Source: Alphaproteobacteria bacterium
GTDB taxonomy: Bacteria > Pseudomonadota > Alphaproteobacteria > Reyranellales > Reyranellaceae
Reading direction: 5' to 3'
Assembly: GCA_016870115.1 (NCBI GenBank)
Contig: VGCH01000001.1
Location: 186,001 to 250,000, forward strand
Length of the DNA stretch: 64,000 bases
Both the position numbers and the translations under genes were made by a program. Below the pieces are notes generated by a model. That model was not told where the DNA came from. It ran no database searches and worked only from the letters and a program-made list of their open reading frames with translations. This document shows, piece by piece, positions 36,453 through 45,147 of this stretch. Every line of letters starts with the position of its first letter. Position 1 is the first letter of the stretch.

Positions 36453-38282
36453 ATGGACCAGAAGAACTTCATTCTCGCGATCGTGCTGTCGGTGCTGATC
36501 ATCGTGGGGTGGCAGGCCGCATTCCCGCCCGCGAAGCCGCCGCCCGCACCGGCAACGACCCAGGGCCAGACCCAGCCCGGCGCTCCGCCGCAGCCGGGCG
36601 CCCCGCAGCCGACCGTCCAGCCGACGCCGGGCGCGCCCGGCGTCCCCGGCGTGGGAACCGGTTCAGCGACCGCCGCGGTCGACCGCGGGCAGGCGCTGTC
36701 GCTGGTGCCGCGCGTCAGCTTCACGACGCCCGAACTCCTGGGCTCGATCTCGCTCAAGGGCGCCCGCATCGACGATGTTCGCCTCGCCAAGCATCGGCTC
36801 GAGCTGGACCCCAAGAGCCAGGCCATCCCGGTGCTCTCGCCCGAAGGCGCCAAGGATCCCTACTACGCCGAATTCGGATGGTCGGCGGCCGACGCCTCGA
36901 TCAAGACTCCGGGCCCCGACACGATGTGGGCGGCGAGCCGCGAGCGCATCGCGCCGGGCGAACCGGTGCGTCTCACCTGGGACAACGGTCAGGGTCTGCT
37001 GTTCGCGATCGATCTCACCGTCGATCAGAACTTCCTGTTCACGGTGAAGCAGAGCGTCGAGAATCGCTCCGACAAGCCGGTCACGCTGTTCCCGTGGGCG
37101 CTCGTGGTGCGCATCGGCGAGTGGAAGACCGAAGGCTTCTACATTCTCCATGAGGGTCCCTATGGCGTGTTCGACGGCACGCTGAAGGAAATCTCGCCGT
37201 CCGATCTCAAGGGCGGCAAGGTGCAGAAAGCCTCGACGACCGGTGGCTGGGTCGGTTTCACCGACAAGTACTGGATGGCGACGCTGGTGCCCGACCAAAA
37301 GACCAAGGTCGATGTCACGATCAAGCAGACCGGCAGCGGTGCCGCCACGCGCTACCAGATCGACTACATCAACCCCACCGGCATCCTCGTCGCGCCCGGC
37401 GCCACAGCGACCAGCTCCGGCATGCTCTATGCCGGCGCCAAGATCGTTCGCGTGATCGACGACTATCGCGCGCGCTTCGAGATCCAGCGCTTCGACCTCA
37501 CCATCGACTGGGGCTGGTTCTGGTTCTTCACCAAGCCGCTCTTCTGGCTGCTGGAATGGCTCTACGTGCAGATCGGCAATTTCGGTCTGTCGATCATGGT
37601 CCTGACGGTGATCGTGAAGGCGCTGTTCTTCCCGCTCGCCAACAAGTCCTACGTGGCGATGAGCAAGATGAAGATGCTCCAGCCCGAGATGGAGAAGCTG
37701 CGCGAGCGTGTCGGCCAGGACAAGCAGCGGATGAACCAGGAGATGATGGCGCTGTACAAGCGCGAGAAGGTCAATCCGGCTGCCGGGTGTCTCCCGATCC
37801 TGGTGCAAATTCCGGTGTTCTTCGCGCTCTACAAGGTGCTCTACACCACGATCGAGATGCGCCATCAGCCGTTCTTCGGCTGGATCCAGGACCTGAGCGC
37901 GCCCGATCCGCTAACGATCCTCACGCTGTTCGGCCTGGTGCCGTGGCAGATCCCGGAGATCCTCGCGTTCTTCAATATCGGCCTGTGGCCCATCATCATG
38001 GGCGTGACGATGTATCTGCAGCAGATGCTGAACCCGCAGCCGACCGATCCGGTGCAGGCCCGCGTGTTCCAGTTCCTGCCGATCCTGTTCACCTTCATGC
38101 TGGCGCCGTTCTCGGCCGGCCTGGTGATCTACTGGGCCTGGAGCAACATCCTGTCGATCGCGCAGCAATACGCCATCATGCGCCGCCACGGCGCACCGAT
38201 TGGCGGTAAGGGCGGCGCGGTCCCGGTGCCGGCGGCGCCGAAGGACACGGGCAAATCCGGCAAGGGCGGCAAGAAGGACTGA
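36453..38282 (+). CDS. yidC: Membrane protein insertase YidC
   Basis: A 609-residue insertase. Helix 1 (ILAIVLSVLIIVGWQAAF), a Pro/Gln-rich linker of about 45 residues (PAPATTQGQTQPGAPPQ and on), the periplasmic beta-sandwich domain, then the conserved core with five helices from FGLSIMVLTVIVKALFFPLA, cytoplasmic KMKMLQPEMEKLRERVGQDKQRM, PAAGCLPILVQIPVFFALYKVL and a final helix pair; the C-terminus is Lys/Gly-rich (GKSGKGGKKD), useful for ribosome contact. Length fits Gram-negative YidC. Its stop overlaps the engB ATG by one base. Confidence 0.97.
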   Translation: MDQKNFILAIVLSVLIIVGWQAAFPPAKPPPAPATTQGQTQPGAPPQPGAPQPTVQPTPGAPGVPGVGTGSATAAVDRGQALSLVPRVSFTTPELLGSISLKGARIDDVRLAKHRLELDPKSQAIPVLSPEGAKDPYYAEFGWSAADASIKTPGPDTMWAASRERIAPGEPVRLTWDNGQGLLFAIDLTVDQNFLFTVKQSVENRSDKPVTLFPWALVVRIGEWKTEGFYILHEGPYGVFDGTLKEISPSDLKGGKVQKASTTGGWVGFTDKYWMATLVPDQKTKVDVTIKQTGSGAATRYQIDYINPTGILVAPGATATSSGMLYAGAKIVRVIDDYRARFEIQRFDLTIDWGWFWFFTKPLFWLLEWLYVQIGNFGLSIMVLTVIVKALFFPLANKSYVAMSKMKMLQPEMEKLRERVGQDKQRMNQEMMALYKREKVNPAAGCLPILVQIPVFFALYKVLYTTIEMRHQPFFGWIQDLSAPDPLTILTLFGLVPWQIPEILAFFNIGLWPIIMGVTMYLQQMLNPQPTDPVQARVFQFLPILFTFMLAPFSAGLVIYWAWSNILSIAQQYAIMRRHGAPIGGKGGAVPVPAAPKDTGKSGKGGKKD

Positions 38283-38981: not shown

Positions 38982-39653
38982 CTAGGCGGCGTCGTGGAAG
39001 ATGATGCCGAGCGCGAAGCGTTCGCCCGAGCGGATCTCGCTCACGCCATGACGTAGTGTCGCGCGGGACCAGCCACGGGCGCCGCGCTCGGGCCGCTCGT
39101 TCACCGCGAAGATCACCGCATCGCCCTGGCGCAGTGGCACGACCTCCACCCGCGACTGGCGCCGCGGGCGCTGCTCAACCACGGCGAACTCACCACCCTC
39201 GAAGTCGCGCCCGGGCTCGCTCAACAGGATCGTCAGCTGCAACGGAAACACCATCGACCCATAGAGGTCCCGGTGCAGGCAATTGTAGTCGCCCGGCCCG
39301 TAGCGCAGCAGGAGCGGCGTGGGACGACGCTGCCCCGCCGCGTGACACTGGTCGAGCCAGGGTTGAAGAGACTCTGGCCGGGCATTCGAGTCATCCCAAA
39401 GCGCCGCCCAGCGGTTGGCCACCGCCGCCAGCGGCGGATAGAGGGCCTCGCGCAGGGCCTGGACACGGTCGGGCAGCGGATAGGTGAAATACCGGTAGGT
39501 TCCGCGGCCAAAGCCGTGGCGCGCCATGTCCACGGTGCTGCGGAACAGCTCCGGGCGGCTCCAGAAACCCGCCAGTTCGGCGCATTCGGCGGCGGACAAG
39601 AGCGCCGGCAGGCGAAGGATGCCGCGTGCCGCCAATTGGTCGGTGTCGATCAT
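38982..39653 (-). CDS. 2-oxoglutarate/Fe(II) dioxygenase (prolyl 4-hydroxylase-like)
   Basis: A 223-residue cytoplasmic dioxygenase. [21 protein letters not shown] carries the H-x-D iron ligands, [23 protein letters not shown] the distal His and the Arg for 2-oxoglutarate. [13 protein letters not shown] and [16 protein letters not shown] match P4H-type oxygenases. ATG at 39653 starts the recognisable domain; an in-frame start 69 bases further up lacks support. It sits antisense between engB and argB, which are normally adjacent, so this gene is probably a later insertion. Target unknown. Confidence 0.87.
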
Positions 39654-39769
39654 GGCGCGATCCTGCCCCGGGTAGGGCGGCCCTTCCATCCGGCGCCGGC
39701 CTGATATACACCGCCCCGGCATCGGCCCTTTCCCGCGCGGAGAGGGCTTTTCAGCATCGGGGCGAAGCG

Positions 39770-41294: not shown

Positions 41295-42656
41295 TTACTG
41301 CGCCGGCATCCGCGCCGCCGGGCCGAAGCTGCGTTCCATCTCGCGGCGGATGCGGACCGCGAGCAGCGTTTCGTCCATCGCCACGTCGGCATAGGTCAGC
41401 GACTGGCCGGCCTTGACCGGTTTCAGGAGCTTCACGTCGTGCGCGAGGCCGAGAGGCAGGCTGCCCAGGCTGGTCGACTTCTCCGCCGGGAAGAGTTTGC
41501 CATAGACGGTGTAGCCGCCCTCGCCATCCAGCATCTCGCCGGCCTTGAGATCGCGCTTGGCGGTCGCGATCACGTCGGCGTGGAAGCCGATCGGGCAACC
41601 CGTGGGCTCGCGGCGCAGCCCCACCGAGGCCACCGACATGCCGACCTCGAGTCCGATCAGATGCCACCGCTTGTACATCACCGAGTAGCGACCCGAGGGG
41701 TCGGTCTGGAGCATGTACTCTTCGAAACAGTTCTTCTGGTACTCGGTCGCCGCCTCGAACACGACCCACACGCCCTTGCGGATCTCGTACGGGATCGCGC
41801 GGCCATCGCGTTCCAGCGAACTCGCGCACTCGACCTGGCCCTTGTGGTGAAGCTGCCCGCCCTCGGAAGCCGGCCGCATGACGAAGGGTAGGTCCTCCAC
41901 GGAACAGGGTGGGAAAGCGAGCCCGTCGGGTGCCGGCGTCAGGCCGGTCGCGTTGGATACCGCCGTGCTCTCGATCGCGGGCTTGGAACCGTCGAGGAAC
42001 GAGTTGAACATTTTCGGATTGAGCCCGCCGCGTCGCGCCTGCTCCTCGTTGAGACCCCAGTGCTGCCATACGGTTTCGGGCGTCGATTGCGCGAATCGCG
42101 GCAACCACTTGTGGCCACGGCCCGCCGCCGTCACCTCGAAGCCGGAGGTGCGCGCCCAATCGACGAGTTCGCAGATCAGCGCCGGTTGGTCGCCATAGGC
42201 GAGGCTGTAGACCACGCCCGCCTCGGCTGCCCGGCGCGCCAGCAGAGGCCCGCAAAGCGCATCGGCCTCGACCGTGACCATGACCACATGCTTGCCCTGA
42301 CGGAACGCCTCCAGCGCATGCTCGACGGCCGCAAGCGGATGGCCGGTCGCCTCAACCACGATGTCGATCCCGGGATGGGAGACCAGCGCGCGCCAATCCT
42401 CGCCGAGATGGGCATTGCCGGCACGCAGCGCGGCGTCGAGCGACGCCGCAGCAGTCACTTCGGGCTTCCAGCCGAGCCGCGCGAGGTTGGCGCGCGCGCC
42501 GGTGGGCGACAGGTCGGCGATCCCGACCAGATGGATGCCGGGCGTCGTCGGGATCTGCGACAGGTACATCGAGCCGAACTTGCCGGCGCCGATGAGACCG
42601 ATGCGCAGCGGCTTGCCCGCCTCCGCGCGCGCCTGGAGCATACGATGCAGATTCAT
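41295..42656 (-). CDS. Homoserine dehydrogenase-like NAD(P) oxidoreductase with C-terminal SAF domain
   Basis: A 453-residue protein of the COG4091 type. LRIGLIGAGKFGSMYLSQI is the Rossmann NAD(P) site; VEATGHPLAAVEHALEAFRQGKHVVMV continues as in homoserine dehydrogenase-like proteins. The last 110 residues (from about AKRDLKAGEMLDGEGGYTVYGKL to AGQSLTYADVAMDE) form a SAF domain, as in antifreeze and sialate-synthase ends. It is the third gene of a reverse unit after a GntR regulator and a PhyH dioxygenase, 22 bases apart. It probably oxidises or rearranges a sugar-acid or hydroxy compound; the substrate cannot be named. Confidence 0.82.
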   Translation of the reverse strand: MNLHRMLQARAEAGKPLRIGLIGAGKFGSMYLSQIPTTPGIHLVGIADLSPTGARANLARLGWKPEVTAAASLDAALRAGNAHLGEDWRALVSHPGIDIVVEATGHPLAAVEHALEAFRQGKHVVMVTVEADALCGPLLARRAAEAGVVYSLAYGDQPALICELVDWARTSGFEVTAAGRGHKWLPRFAQSTPETVWQHWGLNEEQARRGGLNPKMFNSFLDGSKPAIESTAVSNATGLTPAPDGLAFPPCSVEDLPFVMRPASEGGQLHHKGQVECASSLERDGRAIPYEIRKGVWVVFEAATEYQKNCFEEYMLQTDPSGRYSVMYKRWHLIGLEVGMSVASVGLRREPTGCPIGFHADVIATAKRDLKAGEMLDGEGGYTVYGKLFPAEKSTSLGSLPLGLAHDVKLLKPVKAGQSLTYADVAMDETLLAVRIRREMERSFGPAARMPAQ

Positions 42657-42678
42657 GACGATCTCCTGTCGACGCGCG

Positions 42679-43476
42679 TCACTCGGCGGCGTGTTTGCGG
42701 ACCGCGCGGTGGAGGCAGTCCTCGTCCCACGCGTCGATCGGGGTGAAGTCGCGGTGGGCGATGTAGTCCGGCCGCTTGAAGCGGCGGATCGCGTTGGAAA
42801 CCGCGTTGTAGGTCACATAGATGATGCGGCGCTCCCATGGCGACATGTTGGGCGGGCTGCCATGGACCAGCGTGCCGTGGAAGAAGATCGCGGAGCCGGG
42901 CCCACCCTTGGGCGCGACGATGCCGCCCTGCTTCACCAGCTTGGCGATCGTGTCGTTGTCGATCACCCATAGCGGATAGGAGGTGGTGGTGAGGTCGTGG
43001 CGCGCCTCGATCGCACCCTTCTTGTGGCTCTTGGGAATGAACCAGAGCGGGCCGTTGAACTCGTTCACCTCGTCGATGAAGATCGCGAGGTTCATCGCGC
43101 GCGGCGCCGGCATGTCGTCGTCGGCTTTCCAGGTGCCGTAGTCCTGGTGCCACTGCCAGACGTCGCCGTCGAAGGCGGCTTTGCCGTTGATCTTGAATTG
43201 GTGGATGTAGGTACGGTCGCCGAGCAACTGCTCCGCCGGCTCGACGAAGTGCGGATGGTGGATCAGCGCCTCGAAGGTCGGATGATAGGTATGGACCGCG
43301 AACGCCGTGCGCACGACATCGCCGGTCTTCTCGCGCACGTTCTCCGGTCGACGTTGGGCGAAGACGCCAGGCACGGCATCGGCCAGCATCGCCGTCTCCA
43401 CCGCCGAGAAATGGTTGGGCAGGAAGAGGTAGCCCTCTTCGTCGAACTGGCGGAGCTGTTCAGGGGTGAGCTTCAT
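42679..43476 (-). CDS. PhyH-family 2-oxoglutarate dioxygenase, ectoine hydroxylase-like
   Basis: A 265-residue non-heme iron dioxygenase. VWQWHQDYGTWKADDDMP supplies the H-x-D ligands in a setting like the EctD signature, FHGTLVHGSPPNMSPWERR the distal His and the Arg for 2-oxoglutarate, and VTYNAVSN also recalls EctD. No ectABC genes are near, so the substrate is more likely another small hydroxylatable compound handled with the SAF-domain dehydrogenase downstream. It follows the GntR gene by 14 bases in one unit. Confidence 0.82.
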   Translation of the reverse strand: MKLTPEQLRQFDEEGYLFLPNHFSAVETAMLADAVPGVFAQRRPENVREKTGDVVRTAFAVHTYHPTFEALIHHPHFVEPAEQLLGDRTYIHQFKINGKAAFDGDVWQWHQDYGTWKADDDMPAPRAMNLAIFIDEVNEFNGPLWFIPKSHKKGAIEARHDLTTTSYPLWVIDNDTIAKLVKQGGIVAPKGGPGSAIFFHGTLVHGSPPNMSPWERRIIYVTYNAVSNAIRRFKRPDYIAHRDFTPIDAWDEDCLHRAVRKHAAE

Positions 43477-43490
43477 CGTCGTCTCTCCGG

Positions 43491-44162
43491 TCAGGCGGCG
43501 CGTCGGCCGGGGCCACCCAGCCGTTGGGCAAGAATGTCGGCAGCGTTCTCGGCGTGGGCTCGCAGGAGCGTCTCGGCTCGCGCCCCATCGCGCGCCTCAA
43601 GGGCGGCGAGGATGGCCTCGTGCTCGTCCCAGACATTGTAGCTGAGATCGGCGGCGCCCAGCACCGCGCCCATCACGCGCCGCAGGTGTTGCCAGTGCGG
43701 TTGCGCGGTCTCGCTCAGCAGCGGATTGCCCGACGCGTCGTAGATGAACAGGTGGAAGTCGATGTCAGCTTCGATGGCGCCGGGAACGTCGCCGCGTTCG
43801 GCTGCCAGGCGACCGACCCCGATCAGGGCCCGGCCCCGTTCTGCCGTCTCCGGCACAAAGCGGCCCGCCGCGAGTCGGGCGGCCGCGCCGTCGAGGGCGG
43901 CCCGGACGACATAGAGGTTGCGTGCATGGTCGGCGTCGAGCGGCGCGACAGAGACCCCGCGTCGGCCGGAATCGGTCACGAAGCCTTCGCGGCGCAACAG
44001 CTGCATGGCCTGGAGAACCGGTTGTCGCGACACTCCAAATTGGCGCGCAAGGTCGTCCTGGATCAGCCGCGTCCCGGGCGCCAGTTCGCCGGAGCAGATC
44101 GCCGACCGCAACGCATCCTGGATGCGTTCGGCGAGGTCAGGTTCGGTGAGGAGCGGCCGCAT
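43491..44162 (-). CDS. GntR-family transcriptional regulator (FCD type)
   Basis: A 223-residue regulator. The winged helix-turn-helix occupies about residues 10-75 (ICSGELAPGTRLIQDDLARQFGVSRQPVLQAM), followed by an all-helical FCD ligand domain with metal-type residues in EADIDFHLFIYDASGN and DEHEAILAALEARDG. Such proteins usually repress a catabolic operon and release DNA on binding an organic acid. It heads the unit with the PhyH dioxygenase and SAF dehydrogenase. A perfect inverted repeat covers its own start codon, which suggests self-repression. Confidence 0.9.
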   Translation of the reverse strand: MRPLLTEPDLAERIQDALRSAICSGELAPGTRLIQDDLARQFGVSRQPVLQAMQLLRREGFVTDSGRRGVSVAPLDADHARNLYVVRAALDGAAARLAAGRFVPETAERGRALIGVGRLAAERGDVPGAIEADIDFHLFIYDASGNPLLSETAQPHWQHLRRVMGAVLGAADLSYNVWDEHEAILAALEARDGARAETLLRAHAENAADILAQRLGGPGRRAA

Positions 44163-44183
44163 TTCGTATTCGGTATACGAAAT
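44161..44183. promoter_or_regulatory. Palindromic operator over the GntR gene start
   Basis: ATTTCGTAT (44161-44169) and ATACGAAAT (44175-44183) form a perfect 9-base inverted repeat with 5 bases between. The centre contains GGTATACG, close to the GTnnnAC type cores bound by FCD-class GntR proteins. It overlaps the ATG (44160-44162) of the GntR gene, so a bound regulator would block transcription of the three-gene unit at its start. The distance from the stop of the upstream phosphodiesterase gene (44200) is small. Confidence 0.65.
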
Positions 44184-44199
44184 GCGGCCAACCGTCCAA

Positions 44200-45147
44200 C
44201 TATCTGAGGACCACGCCCTTGGCCTTGAGGATCGGCACGGCGAGGTCAGGGTAGTCCGTGATCAAGCCATCGACCTTGAGGTCGATCAGCCGCGCCATCT
44301 CACCGGGATCATTGACCGTCCACGGGATGACCTTGAGGCCGAGCGCCTGGGCGGCGGCCACCTCGGCCGCGTTCACGTTGCGAAAGAACGGCGACCAGAT
44401 CGAGCAGCCGATCGACTTCGCGGCCTTCGGGACAGAGCCCTCCTGCGCGGAAAGCGAGACGCCGGCCAGCCAGGGCGACGTTCCGGCGGCACGACCGACC
44501 GTATCCATGCCACCGCTCTCGATCGACAGACACGCGGTCGGTATCTCGGGCGCCAACCGGCGCGCCTCGACCAGCGTCCGCCAATCGAAGGACTGCAACG
44601 TGGTGCGCGGCGCAATGCCGAGCTGCCGGACTTCGGCGATCACGCGGGCCGCGAACGGCCCCGGCGCCAGGGTCTCGTCCGGCCGATCCGGCCGCAGCTT
44701 GGTCTCCAGGTTGAACCGCACTGTCGGCCCGGTCACGGCGACCAGCTCGGCCAGAGTGGGCATGCGGGTGCCGTCGATCGGCTGTTGCCGGGGGAACTGG
44801 GTGGCGTAGCGGCTCGTGGGATCGATGCGCCCAACATCAAGGCGCTTGATCTCGGCCAGGGTCAGGCGATTGGCGATCCGGGGGGTCGCGTCCAGCCACT
44901 TGCCGTCGGTGTCCCGCACGATCTGGCGGTTGAGCACGGGATCGTGGGTCAGCAGCACCGCGCCGTCACTGGTGATGGCGAGATCGGTCTCCAGCGTGGT
45001 GACACCGAGCTCCAGCGCGGCGCGAAACGCCGGCAGCGTGTTCTCGGGAAACAACCCCCGCGCGCCGCGATGGCCCTGCAGATCGAACGCTGTGGCGGGT
45101 GCGGCGAGCGAACAAAGGGTGGCGGCGATCAGTCCGGCAACGCGCAT
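44200..45147 (-). CDS. Periplasmic glycerophosphodiester phosphodiesterase
   Basis: A 315-residue exported enzyme. Signal peptide MRVAGLIAATLCSLAAPATA, then FDLQGHRGARGLFPENTLPAF, the GDPD signature with catalytic His and Glu; LETDLAITSDGAVLLTHDP holds the calcium or magnesium ligands, and VIPWTVNDPGEMARLIDLKVDGLITDYPD the second His/Asp region pattern of the TIM barrel. It would split lipid-derived glycerophosphodiesters to glycerol-3-phosphate. It lies just upstream of gntR in the same direction; the palindrome separates the two, so co-regulation is uncertain. Confidence 0.92.
   Translation of the reverse strand: MRVAGLIAATLCSLAAPATAFDLQGHRGARGLFPENTLPAFRAALELGVTTLETDLAITSDGAVLLTHDPVLNRQIVRDTDGKWLDATPRIANRLTLAEIKRLDVGRIDPTSRYATQFPRQQPIDGTRMPTLAELVAVTGPTVRFNLETKLRPDRPDETLAPGPFAARVIAEVRQLGIAPRTTLQSFDWRTLVEARRLAPEIPTACLSIESGGMDTVGRAAGTSPWLAGVSLSAQEGSVPKAAKSIGCSIWSPFFRNVNAAEVAAAQALGLKVIPWTVNDPGEMARLIDLKVDGLITDYPDLAVPILKAKGVVLR

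Follow-up and report, generated by a model that had tools for sequence, protein, structure and literature searches.

As described in PMC6667623, the CsiR-CsiD-LhgO system converts glutarate to L-2-hydroxyglutarate and then to 2-oxoglutarate. The same paper reports that the regulator, CsiR, covers the -10 and -35 elements of the promoter it targets and responds to the starting acid as well as to its hydroxylated form. In the GriE-GriF pair, a PhyH-type hydroxylase acting on a free amino acid and followed by an alcohol dehydrogenase turns leucine into 5-hydroxyleucine and then into the aldehyde (PMC5676206). In this study we analyzed a three-gene locus from a member of the Reyranellaceae (Alphaproteobacteria), a bacterium of soil or water, located in a stretch of 64,000 nucleotides hereafter named the window (contig VGCH01000001.1, positions 186,001 to 250,000). 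The locus codes for a GntR/FCD-family regulator, a PhyH oxygenase and an oxidoreductase with a SAF domain, hereafter the SAF dehydrogenase. This trio is a widely conserved unit, whose probable role is to hydroxylate a small free acid and then to oxidize the product.

Like CsiR-CsiD-LhgO, the trio combines a GntR-family repressor with an Fe(II)/2-oxoglutarate hydroxylase and with a dehydrogenase for the acid so hydroxylated. By analogy this system is its best functional parallel: the trio would work like it, and is not a member of it. The window regulator scores 32.5 bits on the CsiR model for a cut-off of 218, which rules out identity with CsiR, and Pfam and NCBIfam scans of the window PhyH and SAF proteins matched no model of CsiD or of LhgO, two enzymes from families other than PhyH and the DLO families considered below. 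With GriE-GriF the likeness lies in the first enzyme, GriE being 37% identical to the window PhyH, whereas that system is biosynthetic, the lid sequence of GriE differs, and the zinc dehydrogenase GriF takes the place of a DLO protein. A repressor joined to a 2-oxoglutarate hydroxylase and a dehydrogenase is a known kind of arrangement; within the open-access literature searched, the enzyme pair is new, and the substrate presumably is new too. A preliminary description of this DNA, made from its sequence, had found no known pathway to match the pair, and this is borne out by the open-access literature searched, where the combination of a PhyH and a DLO enzyme was not found.

The association of the two enzymes was quantified in a phylum survey of 398 genomes, with PhyH places retained at E <= 1e-97 and SAF places at 50% identity or more. 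The SAF gene lies directly downstream of PhyH, on the same strand, at 17 of the 18 PhyH places; at the remaining place (G177) it is found 7 kb off. Among the best 80 PhyH loci (genome contigs), a SAF homologue accompanies PhyH in 58; of the 22 others, 3 end right after PhyH. In the order of genome G327, PhyH was detected in 50 of 399 genomes (51 places), of which 40 places were fetched and PhyH was called in 36; SAF adjoins PhyH in 32 of these 36 loci, with a median gap below 20 nt, and GntR in 16. At the level of the window's family, 35 of 37 genomes carry an orthologue of SAF, at 74% identity or more. Because the gene caller, a simple GC-position method, missed some genes (SAF in L060; PhyH in L075, L082, L211 and L241-L243), the counts that depend on it are lower bounds.

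Other oxidoreductases are found beside some PhyH genes that have no SAF neighbour: a GMC oxidoreductase 6-29 nt upstream (L053-L057), an aldehyde dehydrogenase 5-8 nt downstream (L070, L213, L229), or a short-chain dehydrogenase 5 nt upstream (L095). Such swaps support hydroxylation followed by oxidation and, together with the pairing at 17/18 and 32/36 places, they strengthen the same proposal made in the preliminary description.

In the window, the intergenic gaps are 14 nt between gntR and PhyH and 22 nt between PhyH and SAF. Gene positions and Pfam matches (Table 1) confirm three adjacent genes transcribed in the same direction, on the minus strand, a point that the preliminary description left unsaid, and support their reading as one operon. 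Seven PhyH proteins are encoded in the host genome (3.56 Mb), besides a single protein with DRL_cat and a single canonical DXR.

Table 1. Features of the operon and of its upstream region (window positions).
Feature	Position	Strand	Basis or remark
GntR/FCD-family regulator, 223 aa	44162-43491	minus	Pfam GntR + FCD
PhyH Fe(II)/2-oxoglutarate oxygenase, 265 aa	43476-42679	minus	Pfam PhyH
DXR-II-like NAD(P) oxidoreductase, C-terminal SAF domain, 453 aa	42656-41295	minus	Pfam DRL_cat + SAF
Perfect inverted repeat 15-5-15	44155-44189		spans gntR ATG 44160-44162
Operator-like TTTCGTATACCGAA, diverged form of conserved TTCTGTATACAGAA	44169-44182	minus	upstream-region comparison

The first enzyme belongs to the PhyH family (PF05721, 118.6 bits for a cut-off of 22). 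Residues His110, Asp112, His205, Arg216 and Arg235 are invariant in 36 of 36 aligned members; His110, Asp112 and His205 make up the HxD...H iron triad, and we take Arg216 to be the 2-oxoglutarate arginine. Invariant and family-specific too are the lid residues H160, D161, T165, S166, Y167, P168, L169 and W170; as they are kept even in members without SAF, they suggest one common substrate. The structure closest to the AlphaFold2 model (pLDDT 89.6) is that of the trans-3/4-proline hydroxylase H11 (PDB 8h81, 7e01, 7dzz; 40% identity over 256 columns, TM 0.88), followed by GriE and then by EctD (33%). H11 shares the iron site and the RPEW/RPDY arginine, but is without the lid HDLTTTSYPLW of the window family, and proline is only a candidate substrate for the window PhyH. 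Arg235 aligns with GriE Arg242, reported to form a salt bridge to the carboxylate of 5-hydroxyleucine (PMC5676206). By closest sequence, by modelled fold and by this predicted carboxylate arginine, the enzyme would be of the GriE/H11 type, and is closer to free-amino-acid hydroxylases than to EctD.

An operon metabolizing hydroxyectoine-like osmolytes, in which PhyH would hydroxylate ectoine or a related compatible solute, is very unlikely in view of the scores: the EctD model TIGR02408 is indeed the best NCBIfam match of the protein, but with 158.6 bits it stays below half of its cut-off (336.5), which excludes EctD membership, and H11 and GriE outscore EctD in sequence and fold. The PhyH fold is common to both enzymes, and Thr115-Trp116 matches in the alignment the Thr-Trp pair of EctD, which presumably binds ectoine, where H11 has Phe-Trp and GriE Val-Trp. 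However, no ectoine-synthesis or ectoine-catabolism gene was recognized among the typed neighbours. “EctD-like”, as the protein had first been called, was thus a loose label.

The model of the SAF dehydrogenase (pLDDT 94.7) has a sole full-length structural relative, Brucella DRL/DXR-II (PDB 3upl; TM 0.89, 31% identity), the other listed structure matches staying at TM 0.40 or below by query length. The protein has the DRL fold, with DRL_cat (184.8 bits) and SAF (21.9 bits) domains. Homoserine dehydrogenase is ruled out (26.6 bits in NCBIfam for a cut-off of 205), and the earlier assignment as a homoserine-dehydrogenase-like enzyme of COG4091 is superseded by the DXR-II/DLO family. In DRL, Lys191, Lys193, Thr229 and Arg320 are described as the fosmidomycin anchors and dimer-interface residue (PMC3847144). 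The window enzyme has Arg180, Lys183, Pro226 and Lys329 instead: two substrate-anchor positions are replaced and one residue of the four is kept, which excludes DXR-II membership. Column counts over the 27 PhyH-linked SAF proteins of the alignment give 16 Arg and 16 Pro at the two anchors, the other 11 having Lys and Ser.

According to PMC3847144, DLO1 and DLO2 are uncharacterized families, four tested members of which did not complement a dxr mutant, and Table 1 of that paper includes Bradyrhizobium, Cupriavidus and Variovorax in DLO2. Because of these three genera, the SAF enzyme is likely a DXR-II-like oxidoreductase of DLO2, placed there by taxonomic overlap with that table only. A functional DXR-II, catalyzing an alternative first isoprenoid step with PhyH as a bystander, would agree with the full-length fold and with the DRL_cat score. 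We regard it as extremely improbable, given that the genome has its own canonical DXR (131.7 bits), that the DLO proteins tested failed in complementation (PMC3847144), and that the SAF gene travels with PhyH. Moreover, Lys191 and Thr229 are replaced in the window enzyme, whereas Lys and Thr occupy these columns in one of the three distant homologues aligned with it. Separately, SAF homologues with in-frame stops were seen in two species of one genus (L164 in G442, L183 in G438; 1 TAG; 2 TAA), reflecting either decay or recoding.

Where SAF genes occur without PhyH, their clusters contain transporters (TRAP, ABC or TctC), 3-hydroxyisobutyrate-dehydrogenase-like genes and an IlvD/EDD-type dehydratase, with SMP-30, PfkB or FGGY kinases and a class II aldolase also nearby. 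These contents would fit hydroxy- or sugar-acid oxidation as the general chemistry of SAF enzymes. One cluster recurs in varied combinations of SAF, a small ABM quinol-monooxygenase-like protein, a 3-hydroxyisobutyrate-dehydrogenase-like enzyme and a TRAP transporter (L161, L167-L169, L172; plasmid loci L197, L200, L202), often adjoined by kinase and RpiR genes; it is probably a separate uncharacterized acid-sugar pathway.

The regulator matches PF00392 (52.9 bits) and PF07729 (99.3 bits), both above cut-off, and is of the GntR FCD subfamily. Asp133, His137, His181 and His203 are found in all 19 aligned orthologues, and presumably form the FCD metal site for carboxylate ligands. Both in Reyranellaceae and in Burkholderiales, the conserved operator TTCTGTATACAGAA stands before this same regulator, usually as a single copy in the genome. 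GTATAC is present in 36 of 37 gntR upstream regions (window counted), the typical site of relatives being TGTTCTGTATACAGAAC; in Reyranellaceae the site mostly ends a few bases before the gntR ATG, and in several Burkholderiales it lies slightly further upstream. In 26 of the 36 rows, GTATAC is preceded by TTGACT at a distance of 18-19 nt. Of 61 family genomes, 23 contain the exact conserved 14-mer, each at a single site (reversed control, 0), and 21 of these 23 sites are at this gntR, 15 by coordinates and 6 by gene calling. The remaining two are at a contig end after a GDPD gene (L113) and elsewhere (L124, in G003). When up to 2 mismatches to TTTCGTATACCGAA were allowed across the window's genome, the hits were the window site and a second one elsewhere, with 2 mismatches (control, 1). 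This regulon search thus led to no transporter partner.

Since the operator precedes the same regulator, normally once per genome, the GntR/FCD protein is probably a local autorepressor acting over its own promoter, in line with the control of its own operon proposed earlier; the operon transcript perhaps has a leaderless start. In the window, the operator-like site lies inside the palindrome that covers the gntR start. The preliminary description was right that this repeat is perfect and overlaps the ATG, but its size of 9-5-9 is ruled out, the arms being measured at 15. No other perfect inverted repeat in the window reaches this length (loops of 0-12). Arms of 15 or more were obtained in 2 of 150 first-order Markov sequences of window length, so that by its length alone such a palindrome would be expected in about 1% of windows; the predicted GTATAC operator, conserved in upstream regions, is stronger evidence.

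Instead of an operator, the palindrome may be an RNA hairpin, either terminating the upstream GDPD (glycerophosphodiester phosphodiesterase) gene or sequestering the start codon. Such a hairpin would be very stable (-30 kcal/mol, z -6.4), the GDPD gene ends 11 nt before it, and the AUG is inside its 3' arm. It is nevertheless unlikely, as there is no T run, the terminator search gave 0 terminators, and relatives keep the GTATAC operator but mostly not the extended hairpin. Hairpin and operator roles could also coexist in this one genome. The GDPD gene itself (window 44200-45147) has the same direction as the trio, and is found upstream of gntR in most Reyranella loci. L049 has a perfect palindrome of its own (30 bp, TCATGGTGTTCTGTATACAGAACACCATGA) around the conserved operator core at the gntR start (locus position ~3320).

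Overall, we favour, with some reservation, a self-contained, locally repressed two-enzyme oxidation module for a small free acid. Several observations weigh against it. Some SAF-less PhyH genes (e.g. L061, L062, L068, L078, L214) have no oxidoreductase in the adjoining genes. PhyH is beside SAF at 17 of 39 SAF places and at none of the 22 others, which indicates that the dehydrogenase is generally independent of the PhyH product. Separate occurrence of the two enzymes in most genomes, the finding that the preliminary description considered fatal to its proposal, is thus contradicted on the PhyH side and half seen on the SAF side. With PhyH linkage mapped on the SAF tree of 73 rows, the label changes 6 times (24.1 after shuffling) and the PhyH-linked SAF proteins are not one clade; with SAF linkage mapped on the PhyH tree of 92 rows, 9 changes are needed (shuffled mean, 20.7). 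Linkage is therefore clustered, with several gains or losses. As to the operator, the window copy is degenerate, its core being kept, its flanks diverged and TTGACT lost. GTATAC was found in 2 of 9 further GntR loci from other families (L176, L177), and the operator is absent in the other 7 trio or GntR-PhyH loci examined from other alphaproteobacterial families (L179-L181, L184-L187), so that it follows only part of the regulator family.

In the proposed mechanism, the GntR/FCD protein would repress its own operon through the GTATAC-centred operator, over the promoter and the start codon, and would be released when a free acid, either the substrate or the hydroxylated intermediate, binds the FCD metal site. 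The small free acid that PhyH would then hydroxylate, with Fe(II), O2 and 2-oxoglutarate, would be bound by Arg235 and is most likely an alpha-amino acid or a cyclic imino acid. The DLO dehydrogenase, with NAD(P)+, would oxidize the new alcohol to a carbonyl compound entering general metabolism. Substrate class, step order, dehydrogenase direction, repression and inducer are what we infer; gene order, families, catalytic residues, pair conservation and the operator at this one place are computed. There is perhaps an even chance that a new isofunctional PhyH clade (lid HDLTTTSYPLW) and a DLO dehydrogenase together make up an oxidative route, so far undescribed, by which alpha- and betaproteobacteria process a free amino acid or a cyclic imino acid.

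A linked transporter, which the preliminary description had suggested looking for, did not emerge: none is conserved beside the trio across the loci compared. Some Reyranella loci have an ABC cluster (DeoR, SBP_bac_6, two permeases, ATPase, phosphoesterase) after SAF; having its own regulator and being absent from most loci, it was judged a neighbour. A module that clears or repairs an endogenous metabolite, rather than supporting growth on an imported substrate, would fit this lack of a conserved transporter, the single operator per genome, and the many betaproteobacterial loci where the pair adjoins pyrG-kdsA-eno-ftsB. We hold it to be possible, though on the unlikely side: EamA transporters adjoin PhyH in L073, L084, L207, L213 and L229, SAF homologues elsewhere belong to TRAP, ABC and sugar-acid clusters, and GntR/FCD regulators usually sense nutrients. 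The EamA/DMT-family genes of these five loci are all beside SAF-less PhyH, and their recurrence is a possible transporter link; in the small SAR11-like genome G440, SAF overlaps an EamA transporter gene (L188:9280-11459), an association that is not specific.

Other neighbours of the module suggest acid metabolism, without converging on one substrate. They include purine-catabolism genes (PuuE, allantoate amidohydrolase) after SAF in L069, an acyl-CoA-ligase-family gene and an SGL gene in L066 and L069, tartronate-semialdehyde-reductase-like genes in L091 and L177, and amidohydrolases in L098, L176, L177, L230 and L235. Near the operon, the window also encodes a lone second 2-oxoglutarate/Fe(II) oxygenase (38982-39722; Pfam Oxygenase-NA, 264.8 bits). 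A perfect 22-bp GC-rich palindrome, GACGCCGGGCGCGCCCGGCGTC, is found at 36623-36644, within the start of a membrane-insertase-like gene (36453-38282).

If the proposed reactions are right, current pathway maps miss a short two-enzyme route that occurs in Reyranella, in Bradyrhizobium-like genomes and in many Burkholderiales. With its FCD regulator and its one, strongly conserved operator, the operon lends itself to a direct search for the substrate by derepression. The DLO branch of the DXR-II superfamily would gain a testable reaction, the first to be assigned to it if true, and this would show how DXR-II evolved from sugar- or hydroxy-acid dehydrogenases.

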